The translations under genes and the position numbers were made by a program. Positions 5,028-60,753 of a stretch of 64,000 nucleotides of DNA are shown here, in pieces (position 1 is the first letter of the stretch; each line of letters begins with the position of its first letter). The notes under the pieces are model-generated. The model was given only the letters and a program-made list of their open reading frames with translations, was not told the origin of the DNA and made no database searches. The DNA is from Tridacna crocea (taxonomy: Eukaryota > Mollusca > Bivalvia > Cardiida > Cardiidae), in contig OX031059.1 in NCBI GenBank assembly GCA_943736015.1, positions 17,484,001 to 17,548,000 of the forward strand, read 5' to 3'.

Positions 5028-5301
5028 ACCACGCATTTACTTTTAAATTGCAATTTGAAAATCAGAATTACCAAAGGTGCACCTATTTGTCAAGGTCATC
5101 CATGGAAAATGTAAACTTTGCTGGATTCCCTTGTCGTTAGCAAGCACTTGTGGAATTGTATAAATTTATGACCAGGTTATGGGGAGGGGCCTTATTTACA
5201 GTGCATCGCATGGTTAATTTGTATAAAGAAGTATTTTGTAAAATCAGAGTTCTATCTTGGAGCCCATGTTGGATAAAAAATGATGAGAGCAAAAAGACAC
5301 A

Positions 5302-6863
5302 TTTTTAGCTCACCTGAGCACAACGTGCTCAAGGGGAGCTTTTAGGGTCACTGGCTGTCCGTCGTGCGTCGTCCGTCGTCCGTCGTGCGTCGTCAACAAT
5401 TCTTTAAACATCAACTCCTCCTAAACCGCTGGGCCAATTTGGACCAAACTTAGCAGGAATGTTCCTTGGGAGGTCCTCTTTAAAAAGTGTTCACAGAATT
5501 TGATTCCGTCAAAAACTCTGGTTGCCATGGCAACGAAATGGAATTTTTTAGCAAATTCTTTAAAAATCTTCTCCTCTGAAACCCCTGGTCGGATTTTGAA
5601 ATAATTTCACAGATATGTTCCTTGGGTGACCCTTTTCAAAAATTGTTCGTGAAATTTTGATCCGTCAAAAATTGTGGCTCTGGTGAATGGGGGCTACTTG
5701 CACTATACAGAAATGAAGGAATTCTTAAAAAATCTTCTCCTCTGAAACCGCTGGTTGGATTTTGAAATAATTTCACAGATATGTTCCTTGGGTGACCCTT
5801 TTCAAAAATTGTTCGTGAAATTTTGATCCGTCAAAAAATGTGGCTCTGGTGAACGGGGGCTACTTGCACTATACAGAAATGAAGGAATTCTTAAAAAATC
5901 TTCTTCTCTGAAACTGCCGGTCAGATTTTGAAATAATTTCACAGAGATGTTCCTTGGGTGACCCTTTTCAAAAATTGTTCGCGAAATTTTGATCCGTCAA
6001 GAAACATGGCTCTGGTGAATGGGGGCTTCTTGCACTATTGGGAAATGAGGAAATTCTTAAAAATTTAACTTCTCTGAAACCACTGGTCAGATTTTGAAAT
6101 AATTTCTCTGGGATATTCCTTGGGTGACCCTTTTCAAAAATTGTTCACAAAATTTTAATCCGTCAAGAAACATGGCTCTGGTGAATGGGGGCTACTTGCA
6201 CTCTAGGGAAATGAAGAAATTTTTAAAAATTCTTCTTCTCTGAAATGGCTGGACAGATTTTAAAATGATTTCACAGTGATGATCCTTGGGTGACCCTTTT
6301 CAAAAACTGTTCACAAAATTTTGATCCATGAAGAAACATGGCTCTGGTGAATGGGGGCTACTTGCACTATATGGAAATGAAGAAATTCTTGAAAATTCTT
6401 TTTCTCTGAAACCCCTTGTCAGATTTTAAAATAATTTGACAGAGATGTTCCTTGGGTGATCCTTGCTCTTGTGAATGGGAGCTACTTGCACTATATGGAC
6501 ATGATGATATTCTTGAAAATTCTCTTTCTCTGAAACCCTGGCCAGATTTTAAAAGAAATTTTCCGAAATGTTCCTTGGGTGACCCTTTTCAAAACTTGTT
6601 CGTAAATTTTGATCCATCAAGAAACATGGCTCTCGTGGATGGGGGATACTTGCTCTTATACAGAAATGAAGAATTCTTAAAAATTCTTCTTTTTGAAACT
6701 GATGGTCAGATTTGGAAATGAATTTTACATGTGACCTTTTGAAAATTGCTTAGCAAAATTATAAATTTGGTTCCAATGTTTCAATACCTCAAAAAAAAAA
6801 AATAGGGTATGGTCATCTCAAAACTCAGGTGAGCGATCCAGGGCCATCTTGGCCCTCTTGTTC
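5302..6863 (+). mobile_element. Long GCTCACCTGAGC element with 166-bp tandem units
   Basis: The left end is TTTTTAGCTCACCTGAGCAC followed by a short hairpin (GAGCACAACGTGCTC) and CGTCGTCCGTC repeats. The right end is CTCAGGTGAGC...TTGGCCCTCTTGTTC, so CTCACCTGAGC and its reverse complement bracket the element. The interior is a tandem array. The landmark GTTCCTTGGGTGACC recurs at about 5616, 5783, 5949, 6115, 6281 and 6447, then 6569, giving a period of 166-167 bp with a 44-bp deletion in the second-to-last unit. No transposase reading frame is present, so it is non-autonomous. The architecture recalls bivalve elements with internal tandem repeats of about 160 bp; membership was not tested. 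Confidence 0.85.
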
Positions 6864-20815: not shown

Positions 20816-20884
20816 GCATTTATGTCTCCACGGTATCCAGGTGGTCCACGAGGTCCAGGAGTCAGGATGCCAGATCAGTTTAAT
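20816..20884 (+). CDS. SSBP3: SSBP exon A (AFMSPRYPGGPRG block)
   Basis: A 69-nt, phase 0-0 exon encodes 23 residues containing AFMSPRYPGGPRG and VRMPDQ. It corresponds to the conserved FMSPRY-GGPR-P-RM block of vertebrate SSBP proteins. The acceptor is a T-rich tract ending TTTTTCAG at 20815 and the donor is GTAAGT at 20885. The exon has higher GC than the surrounding DNA and no stop in frame. It has no start codon in a suitable context, so it is internal. A truncated hp1 copy ends about 31 bp before the acceptor. Confidence 0.95.
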
Positions 20885-28262: not shown

Positions 28263-28323
28263 GGTCCACCAGGTAGTGCTGCAGGTCAGATGGCAATGCC
28301 TAACAGTATGGAGCCCCGACCAG
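28263..28323 (+). CDS. SSBP3: SSBP exon B (MAMPNSMEPRP block)
   Basis: A 61-nt, phase 0-1 exon encodes GPPGSAAGQMAMPNSMEPRP plus the first base of a Gly codon. It aligns with the vertebrate block ending in PNSMDP, and GQMAMPNSME is the recognisable core. The acceptor is ATTTCATTTCAG and the donor is GTAAAA at 28324, weaker than most donors in this gene. The preceding intron is 7.4 kb, the longest in the window, and is largely filled with repeats. Confidence 0.93.
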
Positions 28324-35021: not shown

Positions 35022-35113
35022 GACATCCAGGTATGGGGCCCATGCCCAGAATGAATCATCCTGGGGCTCGAATGGCAGGCCCCATGAATCCAGTTAGTCC
35101 TATGAATCCAGGT
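35022..35113 (+). CDS. SSBP3: SSBP exon C (GHPGMGPMPRMNHPG block)
   Basis: A 92-nt, phase 1-0 exon. With the G carried from the previous exon it encodes 31 residues beginning GHPGMGPMPRMNHPGARM and continuing with two Met-Asn-Pro steps. It matches the vertebrate GHPNMGG-MQRMNPPRGM block. The acceptor is TATTCTTCAG. The donor is GTAAGT at 35114; an overlapping GTGTAA two bases earlier would break the frame, so the later site was chosen. Degenerate hp1 sequence ends about 40 bp before the exon. Confidence 0.94.
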
Positions 35114-35907: not shown

Positions 35908-36005
35908 GTATATGATTCAATACCCAACTATGGCCCGGGTATGCGGGGACCACCCCCTAATAGTATGGGGCCAGGAGGACCCGGGGGTATGCCTCCTATG
36001 TCAAT
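35908..36005 (+). CDS. SSBP3: SSBP exon D (NYGPGMRGPPPNSMGP block)
   Basis: A 98-nt, phase 0-2 exon encodes 32 residues plus two bases of a Met codon. NYGPGMRGPPPNSMGP corresponds to NYGSGMRPPPNSLGP in vertebrates. Six residues (VYDSIP) precede this block, where the vertebrate exon starts directly at NYG. The acceptor is CTATTTCACAG and the donor is GTGAGT at 36006. Without splicing, the frame meets TGA at the donor, so the splice is required. The previous intron is only 794 bp and holds one symmetric and one standard hp1 element. Confidence 0.95.
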
Positions 36006-37775: not shown

Positions 37776-37821
37776 GCCTGGTGGAGCAAGTAGACCATGG
37801 CCCCCAACATCATCATCATCA
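37776..37821 (+). CDS. SSBP3: SSBP exon E (GGASRPWPPTSSSS block)
   Basis: A 46-nt, phase 2-0 exon completes the split ATG codon and encodes MPGGASRPWPPTSSSS. It aligns with the vertebrate GPGAGRPWPNPNSANS block; the RPWP core is diagnostic. The acceptor is TTATCTTTCAG and the donor is GTAAGT at 37822. A run of TCA codons gives the Ser tract that leads into the next, duplicated exon. Confidence 0.94.
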
Positions 37822-39640: not shown

Positions 39641-40025
39641 ACTGGTCCATATTGAAAGCATTTGCATATGATGAATTAACTCTTTACCAAATGACAAAAT
39701 TTTAGCTTTGTCCAAATCAAAAGCATTTGCAGACGACGAAGTAAAAGTGATTGAAAATTTGAAATTTGTTTTGTGAAGGGTTGAAAGCATTGTGGGAAAA
39801 GGAGAAAATGCTGTTTACCAGCATTTTCTCCTTTTCCCACAATGTTTTCTAAAGGCTTCTATTTCAGGGTTGTCAAAAGTAGGGATTGTGTGGTAATGGG
39901 TTTAAGTGTTTGTCAAGTGATGGTATATGTGTCTGTGTCTGAAAGCTTGTAACATTTCGTGGGAAAAGGAGAACATGCCGGTCACCAGCATTTTAAATAC
40001 TTAGCACTCTGGTGATAAAGAGTAT
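39641..40025 (-). mobile_element. hp1 host copy interrupted by another hp1
   Basis: The host R-arm (TGGACTGGTCCATATTGAAAG) is cut at GATGAATTAA (39679) and resumes at TTAAGTGTTTGTC (39902) with GTGGGAAAAGGAGAACATGC. The host L-arm is mostly deleted. Confidence 0.8.
39676..39905 (-). mobile_element. hp1 guest copy nested in hp1
   Basis: TTAA at 39676 and 39902. Near-perfect hairpin; same orientation as the host at 39641-40025. Confidence 0.92.
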
Positions 40026-42422: not shown

Positions 42423-42458
42423 ATAAGTTATTCCTCATTATCTCCTGGCAGTTATAAT
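42423..42458 (+). CDS. SSBP3: SSBP exon F1 (36-nt micro-exon, first copy)
   Basis: A 36-nt, phase 0-0 exon encodes ISYSSLSPGSYN. Vertebrate SSBP genes have one equivalent block, IPYSSSSPGTYV, as I recall it. The acceptor is TTCCTTTTTTCAG and the donor is GTAAGT at 42459. A second exon of identical length and phase, 30 of 36 bases identical, lies 5.1 kb downstream at 47544-47579. Either or both could be spliced in without changing frame. A short GCTCACCTGAGC element ends 100 bp upstream. Confidence 0.92.
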
Positions 42459-42822
42459 GTAAGTGACATTTCGGACCCTTTTCGATCGTTCCATCCACAT
42501 TTGTTCATCTCTCATTCTTGTTGTTTTCATTTGCATTTCCCATGCTGCCAGGATGAGCTGAAAGAGCTAAGATTAAAAGTCTTTCATTTTTGCGAAATTT
42601 TTACAATTTCTTTCTGAGTAGGCTTTTTGTTTTTCGAAAACTATTAAGAAATATTCTAAAGATAAACATATGATGGAAGCACAGGAAAGTATTTTAATGG
42701 TACACACACATTGTAGGAAAAGTACCACTTTTTTGCAACAAGTAATTGCCCCCTTTGGACACAATATATCGAAGCTGGTGTTGTTGAAGTTTCAAAATCT
42801 AGGTGCCTAAAAAGTTTTATGT
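42459..42822. other. Unassigned intron sequence
   Basis: No repeat was assigned in the first 360 bp after exon F1. Confidence 0.5.
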
Positions 42823-43030
42823 TTACCCTTTACAAAACAATTTTGAGTTTTCATGACCTCTAGGAAACAAATTTTTGAACAAATTTGGGGGAGGTAAAAA
42901 GTGCTGATAAGCAGCAATTTTTCTTTTTCCAATAATGTTTTCTTCCCTTTCAAGGGCAATGTTTTCCACAAAGTTTTTAAAGCTTCTTTCCTCACGGTCA
43001 TTAAAACTGATTTGTGGGGTTAGGTGTTAA
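42823..43030. mobile_element. Symmetric hp1 derivative with two L-arms
   Basis: Left TTACCCTTTACAAAACAATTTTG; right CTCACGGTCATTAAAACTG to GGTGTTAA (43030). Both flanks read as L-arms. A second AATGTTTTCC word follows the hairpin. Confidence 0.7.
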
Positions 43031-43250
43031 TCTCATATTTCATGAATCAAGATTTTAAAGGGGGGGTGCTTAAATTTAGGTTAATGGTTTATGTGCATGT
43101 CATAATGGTATTCAAGGTGTGCCAGGGAGATTTATAAATGGGGATGATTTTTCTGTTATTTTTCATTTTAGTTTGATTCATAGCAAATTACCTCTTTACT
43201 GTGGAACACTCGCATTTTATAGATGAGAATTTAAAATTTTAAGGAATGTT

Positions 43251-43478
43251 TTAACCCTTTACCACACAATCCCTGGTTTTACGACCCTGAGATAGAAGCC
43301 TTTTGAAAACATTCTTGGAAAATGAGAAAATGCTGGTAACAAGCATTTTCTCCTTTTCCAACAATGTTTTCTACCCTGCTGGAAACAAATTTCAATTTCT
43401 GATTAACATTTATTTTGTTGTCTGCAAGTGCTTTCAATTTGGAGGCGTCTTAAATTTTGTTGTTTGGTAAAGAGTTAA
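43251..43478 (+). mobile_element. hp1 TTAA hairpin element
   Basis: TTAA at 43251 and 43475. Stem changes are paired on both sides (CTTGGAAAATGAG). Confidence 0.9.
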
Positions 43479-43484
43479 GACATT

Positions 43485-43704
43485 TATTTCTCTATCAAAC
43501 AACAAAATTTTAGACTTGGAGTAGAAATTAGAATTCAAAGTTGTTGCAGCCAACAAATAAATGACGAAATAAGTTTGTTTCAGAAAACGTTTCAGCAAAG
43601 GAAAAAATGCTGGTTAGCAACTTTTTCTTCATTTCCTGCAATGTTTTCATGAGCTCTCTTTTATTGGGTCATAGATCTTGTGATTGTATGGTGAAGGAAT
43701 AATT
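43485..43704 (-). mobile_element. hp1 element, diverged
   Basis: R-arm AACAACAAAATTTTAGACTTGG; weak hairpin (AAAAAATGCTGGTTAGC); right end GGTGAAGGAATAA. Confidence 0.72.
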
Positions 43705-43791
43705 AGATAATTTAAAGTATAATAGGTGTTTCATATAGCCCATCTTCTTGTTCATGCTCAAAGTTACTCTGATTTGCAACAATGTTCAGAT

Positions 43792-44020
43792 TTAACCCAT
43801 TACCACATGAGAAAAATTTAGACTGGTCCAAATTGAAAGCATTTGCAGACGACAAAATAAAGGTGACTGAAAAATCGAAATTAGATCTGGGAAGGATAGA
43901 AAACACTGTGGGAAAAGGAGAAAATGCTGGTTACCAGCATTTTCTCCTTTTCCCACAGTGTTTTCTAAAGGCTCCTTTCTCAGGGGCGTCAAAAGTAGGG
44001 ATTGTGTGGTAATGGGTTAA
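43792..44020 (-). mobile_element. hp1 TTAA hairpin element, young-looking
   Basis: TTAA at 43792 and 44017. Nearly the exact reverse complement of 13659-13887. The palindrome is perfect. Confidence 0.94.
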
Positions 44021-44244
44021 CTCTGTATGAAACAACAAAAGTTTTGCCGTTTCCAAATTGAAAGCACTTGCAAATGACAAAAAAAACGTAAGTCAAAAAT
44101 AAAAATTTGTTTCCAGCAGGATAGAAAATGTGGTCGGAAAATGAGAAAATCCTGTTTACCAGTATTTTCTCCTTTTCCTATAATGTTTTTAGAAGACTTT
44201 TTTCTCTTTGTAAAAAAAGACCAGGGATTGTTTGGTAAAGGGTG
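44017..44244 (-). mobile_element. hp1 element sharing a TTAA
   Basis: Shares TTAA 44017. The right end (GGTAAAGGGTGTA) has lost its TTAA. Confidence 0.85.
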
Positions 44245-44439
44245 TATTAAAAGACAAAGAACATATGATCGAAAAGTTCATGTTTGGTTGTCATTTTGTG
44301 TGGTTTTAATCGGTTTGTATAATGTGCATGAAATATTTCACCAACACATCAGTATTAAACAGATAAGGGAGGTAACAAATGGTTGACATAACAGTGTTAT
44401 TTAACTCCCCTGCATGATTATGTACCAACTATTTAGTAT

Positions 44440-44660
44440 TTATTACAAATAATCCTGTGTTTAAATGAGACCAACAAATGGCTCTTCTATAAACATAGTA
44501 GGATAAGCAGAAAATTCTGATCTTCAGGATTTTCCTTTTTTCCACAATATTTTCAGCCCCTTGAAAGATCATTTTCATCATTTGAATCTTACTTGATTTG
44601 TGGTGTGTAATTGCGACCAGTTTGGGCAATTTGGGAATTTTGTCATTTGGTAAAGAGTTA
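44440..44660 (+). mobile_element. hp1 element, degenerate
   Basis: Hairpin GCAGAAAATTCTGATCTTCAG with decayed arms. Right end CATTTGGTAAAGAGTTA. Confidence 0.65.
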
Positions 44661-44718
44661 CCCCAAGAGCTCCAGGTAAGAGGGAGTGATAATATTCTCA
44701 AGTCATTGTTTCTCTTTA

Positions 44719-44789
44719 AACATTATGTTGTGGGTACTCATTAGAATTGTCTCAATGAGACAATTCTAATGAGTACCCATAACATAGGA
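44719..44789. mobile_element. Perfectly paired fold-back
   Basis: Two arms of about 31 nt (GGGTACTCATTAGAATTGTC and its reverse complement) meet at TCAATGA. Only one mismatch was seen. A single arm-like relative lies at 33585-33610 (GCGGATACTCATTAGAATAA). Confidence 0.85.
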
Positions 44790-44849
44790 TTTAATGGAGA
44801 ACATTTAATATTTTCAATTTTGAAATAAAAATTACATTCTCTATCTTGA

Positions 44850-45023
44850 GCCCTGTACCCCGATACAGACTTTTTAGAACATGATGAGAAAAGGGGAAAC
44901 AGCTGTTGACCAGCATTTTCTCACTTTCTCAAATGGGGAAATGCTGGGTACCAGAATTTTTTTTTTTCCCGCAATTTTTTCCCTAGGGTCGTTTAAACTC
45001 AGGATTGTGTGCTAATAGGTTAA
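44850..45023. mobile_element. hp1 remnants, two hairpin halves
   Basis: AACATGATGAGAAAAGGGG and GCTGTTGACCAGC, then a second GGGGAAATGCTGGGTACC followed by a reversed L-arm ending AATAGGTTAA. Confidence 0.55.
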
Positions 45024-45059
45024 ATGAATCTTTCCAGCAAAATTTGAAAAATCCAAATC

Positions 45060-45150
45060 AGTCAATTTCGAATTCAACACATTCTGTTCAGTCTGATTTT
45101 GATCTACAGTGGCTGCAAAATTTCCTGGAGTTGCTCTAAGCAAACAAAGG
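45060..45150. mobile_element. hp4 fragment
   Basis: CATTCTGTTCAGTCTGATTTTGATCTAC keeps one palindrome arm. Confidence 0.5.
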
Positions 45151-45195
45151 GGTTAAACTGCCAAAATTGATTTTGAACAACCTGTTTGGTTACAC

Positions 45196-45389
45196 TTAAC
45201 TCTTAACTGACTTTAAACGACCCTGAGAATGAACGCTTTTGAAAACATTGTGGAAAAAGGAGAAAATGCTGGTAACCAGTATTTTGTTGTCTACCTACAG
45301 TGTTTTTTCCTTTCCAAAATCAAATTTTCTTTTCTTATTTTTTTTGTTGTCAAAAAAGTCCAAAATATTGTTGTTTCTGAAAGATTTAA
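45196..45389 (+). mobile_element. hp1 TTAA element, shortened R-arm
   Basis: TTAA at 45196 and 45386. Right stem mutated (CAGTATTTTGTTGTC). GCAAATGC is missing from the R-arm. Confidence 0.75.
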
Positions 45390-45440
45390 GGGATAATCAG
45401 TATTTCAAAAAGAAAACATTTAAAAACGATTTAAAGAAAA

Positions 45441-45530
45441 ATTGCATTTTACAATGGAATTCTTTCTGTCCAACTGTAACACTAAATTGCATTTTAGAAT
45501 GGAATTCTTTCTGTCCAACTGTGACAATAA
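45441..45530. repeat. 45-bp tandem duplication
   Basis: ATTGCATTTTA through CTGTCCAACTGT occurs twice, 45 bp apart, with a few differences. Confidence 0.88.
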
Positions 45531-45578
45531 AAAGGTCATTTACAGGAGATAATGAGGTGAATTGTAACAAGAATTGTT

Positions 45579-45795
45579 TTAACCCTTTCCCAAACAATAC
45601 CTGGTTTTTACGGGTCTAGAATAGTAGCCTTTTTAAAACATTGTAGGAAATGGAAAAAATGCTGGTAACCAGCATTTTCTCCTTTTCCCACAATGTTTTC
45701 TACACTAACATAGAAATCATCTTTTCAGCAAGAGTTGAATTGTCGTCTGCAAATGCTTTCAATTTGGTCTAGTTTGCTGTTTGGGAAAGAGATAA
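45579..45795 (+). mobile_element. hp1/hp3 mosaic element
   Basis: TTAA at 45579; right end GGGAAAGAGATAA. Ends of hp3 type and hairpin of hp1 type. Confidence 0.85.
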
Positions 45796-46444
45796 AGGAT
45801 TTTAAGTAAGGCTGTTTTTTTTTGAGAAAATGTTAAGGCATTGTTGTAGACCCTAGTGTCGTTGTCTTTGCTTTTTTCTCTGCTCGAAGGGTCATATTAT
45901 GTGATGGCCTAGTTTGTCTGTCTGTCCGTCTATCTGTCTGTTAGCGACTTTTTGTGTGGTCAGTTCCTCCTACAGTTTCTATCAGAGTAACTGGAAACTT
46001 ACCAAAATGAATCTCTGTGATGTGAAGTTGTGCATATGACTTTTAAGATTCGGATCTCTGTTGGCGTTCTGGATTTCACTGACAATGAAACCCATTTCGC
46101 TGACAACCCTGTTTGGGTGTATATGCACAGCTCTTCAAATCTGTTTAATTTCTCGTAATCACTTAAGATATTTACTTCGACTTAGACAAGAGTTTTAAAA
46201 AAAGAATCTTTATAATTAATGACAGGAAACTATCAAAGTACTTTTGGCAGAGTTATGCCCCTTTTTTCAATGAAAAATTTTTACAGAAAATCAAGCAACT
46301 ACTGCCAAGCATTGGCATCCATATTGTGGTGCTCTTGTTTGACTTTTGGCACAGTGATACTGTGTTGTCATGTTCAATGCATGATTCATGCACATCTCGA
46401 TGTTGTAATTGCTTAGTTTATGATGATATTTTCACCCTGTGGTA
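45796..46444. other. Unassigned intron sequence with a TGTC microsatellite
   Basis: TGTC/CTAT repeats occupy about 45915-45945. No exon or other repeat was recognised. Confidence 0.5.
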
Positions 46445-46673
46445 TTAACCCTTTACTCCATAGATACTCATTTCTACGCATTGCTTGAAGGAGCCTTTGG
46501 AAAACATTGTGGCAAAAGGTGAAATTGCTCGTGACGAGCAATTTCACCTTTTGTCACAATGTTTTCTAATGCTTTCAAAAGACCTCGTATACACATATGA
46601 ACAGCTTCATTCTTGCTGTTATTTAGGGTCAATTAGAGATACCATAGAAATGCCTTATGGGGTAAAGGGTTAA
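46445..46673 (+). mobile_element. hp2 TTAA hairpin element
   Basis: TTAA at 46445 and 46670. A full palindrome GCAAAAGGTGAAATTGCTCG around one central G; only one mismatch near the base of the stem. Confidence 0.93.
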
Positions 46674-46706
46674 GTGCGAACTTGTAACGAGCCTGAGGAA
46701 GATAGC

Positions 46707-46930
46707 TCTTTACCACACAACAAAAATGTAGACTTGTCCAAATTCAAAGCATATGCAGATGTCAATTTAAATGTAACCCAAATGAGAAAATCTGTCTTTG
46801 ATAGGAAATAAAGTATTGTGAAAAAAGGAGAAAATGCTGATTACCAGCATTTTGTCCTTTTCCCACAAAGTTTTTGATAGACTTTTTCATCAGGGTCGTT
46901 GAAAGTCGAGATTGTTTGGTAAAGAGTTAA
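46707..46930 (-). mobile_element. hp1 element
   Basis: It begins CTCTTTACCACACAAC without TTAA; right end TTAA 46927. A 30-bp L-arm scrap precedes it at 46676-46706. Confidence 0.82.
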
Positions 46931-46939
46931 GGCATTTCC

Positions 46940-47080
46940 ACAACTTCATCTACACTTTTCAAGATAAATCTCGTTATTTGAGTCACACTTTCAGTAAATT
47001 CTTATTTGGAAATACATGTTCTTCTAATTTCAGTATGGAGAAATATTGAACTATGGCATCATTCTGGCAAAGAATTAACC
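46940..47080 (+). mobile_element. hp1 R-arm fragment
   Basis: TTATTTGAGTCACACTTTC to TTCTGGCAAAGAATTAA. The hairpin is absent. Confidence 0.55.
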
Positions 47081-47101
47081 CTTTACCACACAGTGTAATG
47101 T

Positions 47102-47318
47102 TTAACCCCTTACCAAAACAAAATTTCAGACTTGTCCAAATGGAAAACAACTGTAGACGGCTAATTAAAGGTGACAAAAATGACCAAATTTTTCACTGAT
47201 AGAAAAGAAACATTGTTAGAAAATGAGGTTATCAGCATTTTCTCTTTTTCCAACAATGTTTTGAAAAGGTCTGTTCCTTAGGGTCGTGGAAACAAAGAAT
47301 TGTTTGGTGAAGGGTTAA
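47102..47318 (-). mobile_element. hp1 TTAA element
   Basis: TTAA at 47102 and 47315. The left stem is shortened (GAAAATGAGGTTATCAGC). A 20-bp L-arm scrap lies just before it. Confidence 0.78.
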
Positions 47319-47497
47319 ATGACACTGAGGAAAAAGCTTTTGAAAAAATTGTCACAAAAGGAAAAATGCTTTTTTCTTCATAATTCTATATTTTTTCTAG
47401 CAGTAAAAACATTATTTTCAGATTATTTTCAGTTTGTCGTCCACAAAGGCTTTGAGTTTTGACCAGTCTACAATTTTGTGGTTTGATAAGGAGTTAA
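47319..47497 (+). mobile_element. hp1 remnant upstream of exon F2
   Basis: L-arm and decayed hairpin, clear R-arm (CAGTTTGTCGTCCACAAAGG), right end TTAA 47494, 46 bp before the exon F2 acceptor. Confidence 0.72.
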
Positions 47498-47543
47498 GCC
47501 GTAGATAAACAAATTTGACAATTTATTTATTTTTTCTTTTCAG

Positions 47544-47579
47544 ATAAATTATTCCTCAGCGTCACCTGGTAGTTATAAT
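47544..47579 (+). CDS. SSBP3: SSBP exon F2 (36-nt micro-exon, second copy)
   Basis: A 36-nt, phase 0-0 exon encodes INYSSASPGSYN, a duplicate of exon F1 (ISYSSLSPGSYN). Differences are Ser to Asn at residue 2 and Leu to Ala at residue 6; two further base changes are silent. The acceptor is TTTTTCTTTTCAG and the donor is GTGAGT at 47580. Intact splice sites on both copies indicate that both are used. An hp1 remnant ends 46 bp upstream. Whether the two are mutually exclusive or used together cannot be read from the sequence. Confidence 0.92.
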
Positions 47580-49560: not shown

Positions 49561-49615
49561 GGTCCACCCACAGGGGGCGGTCCACCTGGTACTCCTATAA
49601 TGCCTAGTCCACAAG
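49561..49615 (+). CDS. SSBP3: SSBP exon G (GPPGTPIMPSP block)
   Basis: A 55-nt, phase 0-1 exon encodes GPPTGGGPPGTPIMPSPQ plus one base. It is nearly identical to the vertebrate GPPGGGGPPGTPIMPSP block, the strongest single match in the window. The acceptor is TTTCTCTTTGCAG and the donor is GTATGT at 49616. The phase-1 end can join either to the 51-nt exon at 51556 or directly to the exon at 57546. Confidence 0.95.
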
Positions 49616-53632: not shown

Positions 53633-53923
53633 CATACTATGATAAATACATCTGACATTTTTACCTATGACATTTTTACCCATGACATTTTTACCTATGG
53701 CATTTTTACCTCTGACATTTTTACCTACATTCTTTGAACCATATTTGATCATTAGTGTGCAATTGATTTGGAAGGGTCCAAAATTTAGTCATGTGGTAAA
53801 GGATTAATGCTCTTTAGTCAATTTTTTTTTTGTTCCAAAGATTAAGAAAATTTAGTTGATATACAAAACCATAGCCTTGATTCTTACATTAAGAGATATG
53901 AAAGCTAAAGAATTTCCTTTCAA

Positions 53924-55414
53924 TTTTTAGCTCACCTGAGCACAATGTGCTCAAGGGGAGCTTTTAGGATCACCCGGTGTCCGTCGTCCGTTGTGCGTCG
54001 TCAACAATTCTTTAAACATCAACTCCTCCTAAACCGCTGGGCGGATTTGGACCAAACTTGGCAGGAATGTTCCTTGGGAGGTCCTGTTTAAAAAATGTTC
54101 ACAGAATTTGATTCCATCAAAAACTCTGGTTGCCATGGCAACAAAATGGAATTTTTTAGCAAATTCTTTGAAAATCCTCTCCTCTGAAACCGCTGGTCGG
54201 ATTTTGAAAAAAATTTCACAGATATGTTCCTTGGGTGACCCTTTTCAAAAATTGTTCGTGAAATTTTGATCATCAAAAATTGTGGCTCTGGTGAATGGGG
54301 GCTTCTTGCACTATACAGAAATGAAGGAATTCTTTAAAAATCTTCTCCTCTGAAACCGCTGGTCGGATTTTGAAATTATTTCACAGATACGTTCCTTGGG
54401 TGACCCTTTTAAAAAATTGTTCGTGGAATTTTGATCCGTCAAAAAATGTGGCTTTGGTGAATGGGGGCTTCTTGCACTATACAGAAATGGAGGAATTCTT
54501 AAAAAATCTTCTTCTCTGAAACCGCTGGTCAGATTTTGAAATAATTTCACAGAGTTGTTCCATGGGTGACCCTTTTAAAAGACTGTTTGGGAAATTTTGA
54601 TTGGTCAAGAAACATGGCTCTGGTGAATGGGGGCTTCTTGCACTATACAGAAATGAAGAAATTCTTAAGAATTCTTCTTCTCTGAAACAGCTGGTTAGAT
54701 TTTGAAATAATTTCACAGACTTGTTCCCTGGGTTACCCTTTTCAAAAATTGTTCGCGAAATTTTGATTGGTCAAGAAACATGGCTCTGGTGAATGGGGAC
54801 TACTTGTACTATACAGAAATGAAGAAATTCTTGAAAATTCTTCTTCTCTGAAATGGCTGGATAGATTTTGAAATAATATCACAGAGATGTTCCTTGGGTG
54901 ACCCTTTTCTAAATTTGTTCGCGAAATTTTGATTGGCCAAGAAACATGGCTCTAGTGAATGGGGGCTACTTGCACTATATGGAAATGAAGAAATTCTTGA
55001 AAATTCTTCTTCTCTGAGACCCGTGGTCAGATTTTAAAATAATCTCACAGAGATGTTCCTTGGGTGACCCTTTCCAAAAGCTGTACATATAATTTTGGGG
55101 GCTACTTGCACTATATGGAAATGAAGAAATTCTTGAAAATTCTTCTTCTCTGAGACCCGTGGTCAGATTTTAAAATAATCTGACAGAGATGTTCCTTGGG
55201 TGACCCTTTCCAAAAGCTGTACATATAATTTTGATAATTCTTCTTTTTGAAACTGATGGTCAGATTTCGAAATGACTTATACAGGTGACCTTTTGAAAAT
55301 TGCTTGGCAAAATTATAAATTTGGTTCCAGTGTTTCAATACCTCAAAAAAAAATAGACTATGGTCATCTCAAAAATTCAGGTGAGCGATCCAGGGCCATC
55401 TTGGCCCTCTTGTT
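53924..55414 (+). mobile_element. Long GCTCACCTGAGC element with 166-bp tandem units
   Basis: Same ends and unit family as 5302-6863. Later units differ from the first, and the unit around 54960-55080 is followed by a near-exact partial duplicate (GGGGCTACTTGCACTATATG). Six to seven units can be followed through TTCCTTGGGTGACC. Confidence 0.87.
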
Positions 55415-56190: not shown

Positions 56191-57463
56191 TTATTAGCTC
56201 ACCTGAGCACGAAGTGCTCATGGTGAGCTTTTGTGATCGCCAAATGTCCGTCGTCCATTGTGCGTCGTCCACAATATCTTTAAACATCTTCTCCTCCTAA
56301 ACCACTGGGCCAATCTTGATGAAACTTGGCAGGGATGTTCCTTGGGTGAAGTTCTACCAAAGTTGTTCAAGAGATTGAAGTCCAGCCATAATTGTGGTTG
56401 CCATGGCAACCAAAAGGAAAAAAAATAGCAAAATCTTTGAAAATCTTCTTCTCTGAAACTAGAGGGCGTAGAGCTTTGATATTTGGTATGTAGCATCTCC
56501 TAGTGGACCTCTACCAAGATTGTTCATATGATGCCCCTGGGGTCAAAATTGCCCCGCCCAGGGGATCACAAGTTTTAAACATAGGAACAAAGAAGGAAAA
56601 CTTTAAAAATCTTCTCCTCTGAAACTAGAAAGTGCAGGGCTTTGATATTTGCTATGTAGCATCTCCTAGTGGACCTCCATTAAGATTGTTCATATGATGC
56701 CCCTTGGGTCAAAACTGGCCCTGGGGATCACAAGTTTGTATGATTGGAACAAAGAAGGAAAACTTAAAAATTCTTCTTCTCTGAAACTAGAAGGCGCAAA
56801 GCTTTTATATTTGGTATGTAGCATCTCCTAGTGCACCTCTACCAATTGTTCATATGATGCCCCTGGGGTCAAAACTGGCTCCGCCCCGGGGTTCACAATT
56901 TTGAAACATAGGAACAAAGGAGGAAAAGTTTAAAATTCCTCTTCTTGGAAACTAGAAGGCGTAGAGCTTTGATATTTGGTATGTAGCATCTCCTAGTGGA
57001 CCTCTACCAAGATTGTTCATATGATGCCCCTGGGGTCAAACTGGCCCCACCCCGGGGATCACAAGTTTGTATGATTGGAACAAAGAAGGAAAACTTCAAA
57101 ATTCTTCTTCTCTGAAACTAGAAAGTGCAGAGCTTTGATATTAAATTTTGGTATGTAGCATCTCCTAGTGGACCTCTATTAAGATTGTTCATATGATGCC
57201 CCTGGGGTCAAAACTGGCCCTGCCCCAGGGGTCACAAGTTTGAAACTTAGGAACAAAGAAGGAAAACTTTAAAAATCTTTTTCTCTGCAACTAGACGGTG
57301 CAGAGCTTTTATATTTGGTATGTAGCGTCTGCTAGTTGACCTCTAACAAGGTTTTTCTTAGGATGTCCCTGGGGTCAAAACTGGCCTTGCCCAGGGGTTA
57401 CAAGTTTGATTTTACAGCTTGGTACTCAGGTGAGCAATATAGGACCATCATGATCCTCTTGTT
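56191..57463 (+). mobile_element. GCTCACCTGAGC element, divergent tandem unit
   Basis: The left end TTATTAGCTCACCTGAGCAC and right end CTCAGGTGAGCAATAT to TCCTCTTG match the other elements. The internal unit is different: the landmark TAGCATCTCCTAGTGGACC recurs at about 56491, 56657, 56819, 56984, 57155 and 57323, a spacing of 162-171 bp. CTTCTCTGAAACTAGA and GGGGTCAAAACTGGCCC are in every unit. Confidence 0.87.
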
Positions 57464-57545: not shown

Positions 57546-57622
57546 ATTCAACAAGTTCAGGAGATGGTATGTATGGTATGTTGAAACCAGGGCCAGGCTC
57601 AATGCCAGGAATGCCAGGAGGG
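57546..57622 (+). CDS. SSBP3: SSBP exon I (DSTSSGDGMYGMLKPGPG block)
   Basis: A 77-nt, phase 1-0 exon. With the carried G it encodes 26 residues beginning DSTSSGDGMYGMLKPGPG and ending MPGMPGG. It corresponds to the vertebrate DSTNSSDNIYTMINPVPPG block. The acceptor is CCTCTATTTTTAG and the donor is GTATGT at 57623. It lies 83 bp after the end of the long tandem-repeat element at 56191-57463. Confidence 0.93.
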
Positions 57623-58869: not shown

Positions 58870-58942
58870 TTCCCGGGCATGCCTGGTGGGCCAGAAGGTA
58901 GTATGGGTATGGGGCCAGATGGGATGCCGCCGGTTATGAATG
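58870..58942 (+). CDS. SSBP3: SSBP exon J (FPGMPGGPEGSMGMGPDGMPP block)
   Basis: A 73-nt, phase 0-1 exon encodes 24 residues starting FPGMPGGPEGSMGMGP and ending PPVMN, plus one base. It aligns with the vertebrate FPMGPGSDGPMGGMGGME--HMNG block. The acceptor is GATATTTCAACAG and the donor is GTAAGG at 58943. The composition is almost wholly Gly, Pro and Met, as expected for this disordered region. Confidence 0.93.
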
Positions 58943-59465: not shown

Positions 59466-59900
59466 TTATGATTGCAAAGACAGTAGATGAGTACCGGTAA
59501 GTAGAATAAGTAAAGATTTGAGGGAAACAAAAATGGCCCCACATGAAGTTCTACAGTAGTCTTGGATTTCTTACTTTCTACGAGTATTGTTTGTAAGTTT
59601 TAAAAGTATTAGCCCAAGTCCTAGCATAAGAGAACTAGTTTGCTTCTTGCATCCATTTGAGGGGCTGAAAAATGGCAATGGCAAGAGAAATTGTGCACTT
59701 GAATTTTAGAAAGCATTTTCTCATGCTGTGGAAACAAAAAGAAGTTGAAGGGACTTGTGTCACTGAATAAGATGAATTGTTCAGAACAGTAGTACTGCCA
59801 GCTTTTTTGAAGTAACAGACTTCAAAAGCAATTTACATAATTTAACATAGACTGTAAGGTATTTGACTTGCCATCCATGTAAATTCAAGAATTTGTTGCA
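59466..59900. other. Unassigned intron sequence
   Basis: No repeat or exon was recognised. Confidence 0.5.
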
Positions 59901-60427
59901 AGGAATAAGTGTAATGTACCCGAGATAGCACTACAACAGCCCATAAGTGATGTAATAGGTAGTTTTACTTCATTTAATAAGTGTTATTTGCCCGAGGTAA
60001 CACTACGAAAGCAAGCTGTACTACAAGGAATAAGTGTAATGTACCTGAGACAGCACTACAAAAGCCCATAAGTGACATAATTGGTAGTTTTACTGCAATC
60101 AATATGTGTTATGTATCTGAGATAACACTATGGAAGCACTACTGCAAGGAATAAGTGTAATGTACCTGAGATAGCATTACAACAGTATATAAGTAACATA
60201 ACTGGTAGTTTTACTGCACTCAATAAGTGTTATGTACCCGAGATAAGACTATGGAAGCAAGCACTACTGCAAGGAATAAGTGTAATGTACCTGAGATAGC
60301 ATTAAAAAAGCCAATAAGTGACATAACTGGTAGTTTTACTGCACTCAATAAGTGTTATGTACCCGAGATAACTCTATGGAAGCAAGCACTACTGCAAGGA
60401 ATAAGTGTAATGTACCCGAGATAGCAT
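59901..60427 (+). repeat. 125-bp tandem array before exon K
   Basis: Units start with AGGAATAAGTGTAATGTACC at 59901, 60026, 60147, 60272 and 60397, giving spacings of 125, 121, 125 and 125 bp and about 4.2 copies. Each unit has two related halves, AATAAGTGTAATGTACCTGAGATAGCA and AATAAGTGTTATGTACCCGAGATAACA. The array ends about 200 bp before the exon K acceptor. Confidence 0.92.
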
Positions 60428-60628: not shown

Positions 60629-60753
60629 GTGATATGGATGGTATGAAAAATTCCCCGGCAAATGGACCGGGTACTCCAAGAGATGATTTGCCGCCTACGG
60701 GTGGTGGTCCAGATATGGGTGGTTACCCAAATTTAGCGGGATATCCAGATAAT
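60629..60753 (+). CDS. SSBP3: SSBP exon K (GDMDGMKNSPANGPGTPRDD block)
   Basis: A 125-nt, phase 1-0 exon encodes 42 residues starting GDMDGMKNSPANGPGTPRDD and ending LAGYPDN. It matches the vertebrate GDIDGLPKNSPN---PPGTPRDD block followed by a divergent spacer and a DN end. In vertebrates the next and last exon encodes a short YSPSMTMSV-like tail; I find no such exon downstream in this window. The acceptor is TTTACTTACAG and the donor is GTAAGT at 60754. If the intron were retained, nine further codons (VSKWTCYKN) would precede a TGA. Confidence 0.94.

Follow-up and report, generated by a model that had tools for sequence, protein, structure and literature searches.

The window analysed here, a stretch of 64,000 nucleotides (nt) of the Tridacna crocea genome (1.05 Gb in 31 contigs), corresponds to C4:17484001-17548000 (contig OX031059.1) and carries on its forward strand eleven exons of a gene of the SSBP/Ssdp family, whose conserved products act as partners of developmental switch proteins. 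Two neighbouring exons of this gene are copies of each other: copy 1 lies at 42423-42458 (ISYSSLSPGSYN; DNA ATAAGTTATTCCTCATTATCTCCTGGCAGTTATAAT) and copy 2 at 47544-47579 (INYSSASPGSYN; DNA ATAAATTATTCCTCAGCGTCACCTGGTAGTTATAAT), with the donors AAT/gtaagt and AAT/gtgagt, respectively. An earlier note, made from the letters of the window, had described them as a pair of 36-nt exons in phase 0-0, and both were found at these positions, bounded by AG and GT, with their frame confirmed. A recount reproduced its figure of 30 identical nucleotides in 36 and gave 10 identical residues in 12 at the protein level. The differences, copy 1 given first, are AGT/AAT, TTA/GCG (3 nt), TCT/TCA and GGC/GGT; two of the six base differences are silent, as the note had counted, and the two peptides are distinguished by a single S/N and a single L/A replacement. 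Given the base composition of the window, at least 30 matches in 36 would arise at any single specified pair of places with a probability of about 3e-12. No further match to either exon at 24/36 or better was seen elsewhere in the window on either strand, and no third copy was found on either strand of the 248 kb of surrounding genome, where the next best match was 23/36 nt and the next best 12-residue stretch in a six-frame scan was 7/12. The other exons of the window showed no duplicates in the same 248 kb, their best other blastn matches being of 20 nt or less. Being adjacent, homologous, on a shared strand, in a shared phase and of similar length, the two exons constitute a tandem exon duplication, a well-described kind of event (PMC9013439, PMC9741552).

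Constructs with both, either or neither copy were scanned with the Pfam SSDP profile (PF04503). At lengths of 244 to 256 residues, copy 2 alone gave 163.7 bits and copy 1 alone 161.4 bits, each in a single stretch, whereas the construct with both copies gave 141.7 bits and was split into two stretches; in shorter constructs the scores were 67.8 bits with copy 2, 65.6 with copy 1, 62.4 with both and 41.5 with neither. Since either copy aligns straight and the two together split the alignment, the family consensus holds one such block, in agreement with what the note had claimed for vertebrate SSBP proteins, with the qualification that a profile consensus hides minority insertions and cannot tell whether some lineages share a second copy. 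Part of the drop in score with both copies would occur with any insertion. Copy 2 lies nearer to the consensus than copy 1 by about 2 bits, and its construct covers profile positions 77 to 290 of 291 at a score far above the cut-off of 27, which places the Pro/Gly/Met-rich tail within the family. The corresponding block of human SSBP2 agrees with copy 2 at 9, and with copy 1 at 8, of 11 aligned residues; the test of the point is the profile.

Both copies carry U2-type GT-AG sites and are separated by an intron of 5,085 nt. Their donors match the consensus at 8 of 9 positions (6 to 8 in the other nine exons) and their acceptor tracts contain 13 and 14 pyrimidines in 16 positions (10 to 16 in the other nine), so that the splice sites of the pair, good ones according to the note, compare well with those of the rest of the gene. 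Whether both copies, either one or neither is placed between the neighbouring exons 37776-37821 and 49561-49615, the reading frame is kept, which bears out the claim that every choice stays in frame. With neither, one or both copies, the stretch that includes these two neighbours has 33, 45 or 57 residues, 0, 2 or 4 tyrosines, and 2, 3 or 4 Ser-Pro or Thr-Pro sites.

When the 250-nt flanks past the splice sites of the two copies were compared, 126 of 200 shuffles reached the upstream score and 101 of 200 the downstream one; ungapped identity over 200 nt was 36% upstream and 25.5% downstream, with 27% expected from composition. The exons thus hold 83% identity while their proximal flanks stand at background, and therefore either selection has acted on both copies or the duplicated piece was cut near the exon edges. 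We consider the former likelier, with both copies probably held by selection while the introns drifted. The nonsynonymous and synonymous divergences between the copies (dN 0.12, dS 0.50) and the decayed flanks make an old duplication kept by selection, as the note had proposed, a reasonable suggestion, although one that rests on 12 codons. Its statement about unrelated flanking introns is correct for the proximal 250 nt but not for the introns as a whole, because the three introns around the pair share a dispersed fold-back repeat of about 230 bp. This repeat (for example 39676-39905) forms a long near-perfect hairpin, with a predicted energy of -82.7 kcal/mol for one copy, and occupies about 30% of the window (121 blocks), about 27% of the 248 kb (418 blocks), and 35%, 39% and 44% of the length of the three introns. 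Given this coverage, the very many shared matches among those listed in a search for a duplication footprint in the introns were taken as copies of the repeat and not as a duplicated segment. A repeat-free zone at copy 1 was likewise discarded as a candidate constrained flank, since its gap of 1,769 bp ranks fifth among the 123 gaps of the window, and gaps of that length or more contain 23% of the non-repeat bases.

The identification of the host as an SSBP gene, also made in the note, is supported by the profile match of the tail and by exons of the N-terminal LUFS/LisH domain. Three LUFS exons lie on the same strand at C4:17373000-17374644, about 110 kb upstream, and their joined translation, with deduced junctions, matches in the PDB both SSBP2 (E 1.9e-49) and the Ssdp isoform A chain 6s9r (E 3.8e-44), as expected of a member of the SSDP family. 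Another SSBP-family exon was found about 54 kb upstream of the window. Judging by their order and strand, the LUFS, upstream and window exons would belong to one transcript, some of whose intervening exons were not seen. A genome search with LUFS scored five of five candidates and returned three matches at E of 0.1 or below, all at one locus, and therefore no paralogue was found that could share the work; the gene is likely single-copy, which falls short of proof because only the best candidates were scored. A six-frame search of the same genome with the SSDP family gave no match but is uninformative, as its control gave a signal in 0 of 14 genomes; the spread of the profile across numerous small exons is a possible cause. 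Neither viral contigs nor contigs of prokaryote genomes contained any match to a degenerate DNA pattern designed on the exon following the pair, which is what an animal gene would lead one to expect.

With both copies included, the eleven exons, from 20816 to 60753, give an open frame of 768 nt. Apart from the pair, they are located, all on the forward strand, at 20816-20884 (AFMSPRYPGGPRGPGVRMPDQFN), 28263-28323, 35022-35113, 35908-36005 (ending in phase 2), 37776-37821 (PGGASRPWPPTSSSS; the upstream neighbour of the pair, ending in phase 0), 49561-49615 (GPPTGGGPPGTPIMPSPQ; the downstream neighbour), 57546-57622 (DSTSSGDGMYGMLKPGPGSMPGMPGG), 58870-58942 and 60629-60753, the last coding exon found, which contains GPGTPRDD. 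Those beginning at 20816, 49561, 57546 and 60629 were located by tblastn with human SSBP2 together with splice joining, and those beginning at 28263, 35022, 35908 and 58870 by splice joining. The exon 60629-60753 closes with a good donor, AAT/gtaagt, from 60754 onward, and pattern searches for a terminal coding exon up to about 104 kb and 134 kb (window coordinates) gave no convincing candidate. Two tandem arrays stand just upstream of exons, one at 56431-57409 (unit of about 166 bp, about 5.9 copies) before the exon at 57546 and one at 59897-60427 (unit of 125 bp, 4.3 copies) before the exon at 60629. Two further element copies, at 5301-6613 and 53923-55235, are 89% identical and each carry a 166-bp unit in about 5.5 tandem copies; they appear to resemble the pearl/Helentron elements of bivalves, and units of about 160 bp occur in mollusc elements of this kind.

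The reading that we favour, to which we would give an even chance of being right, is that the pair is used alternatively but not in a strictly exclusive manner, with copy 2 as the default. One small coding exon of the proline-rich, presumably disordered SSBP/Ssdp tail has been duplicated in tandem; both copies would be spliced into mRNA, most transcripts carrying one of them, and copy 2, slightly the nearer to the family profile, would be the usual form and copy 1 the variant. The choice would probably stop short of strict exclusion because nothing that we found clearly prevents both or neither from being included. The outcome would be subtle tuning of a Ser/Tyr-rich stretch within the tail region of the LDB-SSBP coactivator complex. 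This reading and its rivals overlap slightly as categories, and several points weigh against it: the strong sites on both copies make inclusion of both the simplest default; a difference of about 2 bits is the basis for making copy 2 the default; and the dN/dS estimate, drawn from 12 codons, carries little weight. Moreover, human duplicate-exon pairs are reported to share only 15.6% of their predicted disordered residues (PMC9741552), and the 10 of 12 kept here could also be explained by a recent duplication whose ends lay near the exon. Conservation at this level in a tail that is presumed, from its description in the literature, to be disordered could thus reflect either constraint or youth.

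Constitutive inclusion of both copies, which would give the protein a tandem repeat of the 12-residue motif, is a possible though somewhat unlikely arrangement. The donors and pyrimidine tracts of the pair fall inside the range seen in the other nine exons or at its upper end, the frame is open with both joined, and no device clearly preventing double inclusion was found; however, the family profile contains a single block and loses about 20 bits when both are present, a cost that any 12-residue insertion would similarly incur, and exons as short as these are often regulated. That one copy is a relic no longer spliced in appears distinctly improbable. Copy 1 is slightly further from the family profile, and 4,027 unannotated intronic exon duplicates are reported in human genes, at least some of which may be expressed (PMC9013439); yet the open frame, the phase and the splice sites are intact in both copies here despite flanks at background.

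Strictly mutually exclusive splicing, enforced by an RNA structure or a splicing factor, is in our view unlikely. Exons of that class are typically homologous, adjacent and of similar length (PMC6071210), and the pair has all three properties, but three classical devices of mutual exclusion, a short intron, a U2/U12 clash and a frameshift of the double form, are absent from it: the length of the intervening intron makes steric exclusion inapplicable, both copies have U2-type sites, and the double form stays in frame. The same source describes a small but significant tendency of consecutive introns of mutually exclusive clusters to resemble each other, and no such similarity was seen in the proximal 250-nt flanks of the pair, which share nothing above chance. 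A fourth device would be competing RNA pairing of the docking/selector type, and bearing on it, in favour of strict exclusion, is a 15-nt perfect reverse complement of positions 42433-42447 of copy 1, located at 45543-45557 (+ strand) in the intron between the copies. The longest complements within 6 kb of the other ten exons are of 8 to 10 nt, and 5 of 1500 repeat-masked random 36-mers have a complement at least as long within 6 kb; without masking, however, 64 of 400 reach 15 nt, and the complement is one match obtained after examining 11 exons. With 10-nt flanks, the duplex at this place is predicted at -33.3 kcal/mol for copy 1 and at -21.7 kcal/mol for copy 2. Copy 1 alone is predicted at -30.0 kcal/mol there, and the best of its 60 mononucleotide shuffles at -27.2 kcal/mol, but this control is not strong, because copy 1 elsewhere (-27.7) and copy 2 at yet another place in these introns (-27.3) also pass that mark, the latter just barely. 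Pairing of copy 1 with 45543-45557 in the RNA is accordingly a weak, possible lead. A 45-bp tandem duplication lies nearby, at 45439-45531. TGCATG sites of the RBFOX type were also considered; two occur among the 22 flanks (250 nt each) of the 11 exons, one of them some 30 nt downstream of the copy 2 donor, and they were left unused since about one is expected by a rough estimate. A more far-reaching scenario, that in a lineage possessing a single SSBP gene duplication of the 36-nt tail exon and a choice between its copies by tissue took the place of the multi-gene diversity of vertebrates, with copy 1 held back by the duplex at 45543-45557, would be a long shot.

One report describes the N-terminal part of SSBP as solved and the tail as a long, nonconserved region that is likely disordered (PMC6800368). 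An exon duplicated and still intact in such a tail points to a short piece about which selection may care, could let the gene make variant proteins, and provides a natural variant with which the SSBP tail may be tested. Should both copies be constitutive, they would amount to an ordinary small repeat; should the choice by tissue and the RNA duplex be true, the core of the LIM-homeodomain and Wnt enhanceosome would carry a switch controlled by splicing.

The gene of the window shares its LUFS domain, and the order of its conserved blocks under the SSDP profile, with SSBP2, SSBP3 and SSBP4 of vertebrates and Ssdp of Drosophila (LUFS structures 8hib, 6tyd, 6iwv and 6s9r). With human SSBP2 it also shares the I-x-Y-S-S-x-S-P-G-x-Y block and the GPPxGGGPPGTPIMPSP of the next exon. 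It differs from the family in devoting two exons to a block of which the profile has one copy. Vertebrates have three such proteins, Ssbp2-4 (PMC10551014), whereas the genome search returned one LUFS locus here. Among the matches listed in open-licence PMC literature, titles and the starts of abstracts described no duplicated SSBP exon. Tandem duplicated exons with alternative use are described for exon 5 of SNAP25, exons 4a/4b of OGDH, Dscam and CACNA1C (the last in PMC9741552), which, like the pair described here, are adjacent homologous exons of one gene; unlike them, the present pair consists of exons of only 36 nt in a tail presumed to be disordered and is a candidate for alternative use. 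Within the SSBP family itself, exon 6 of SSBP3 is reported to be skipped in human cells (PMC8980049), a case of a single skipped exon and not of a duplicated pair, and Ssbp3 appears in another report as a potential Mbnl target among the splicing changes of mouse face development (PMC7498679). Together these two cases provide a precedent for regulated splicing in the SSBP family.

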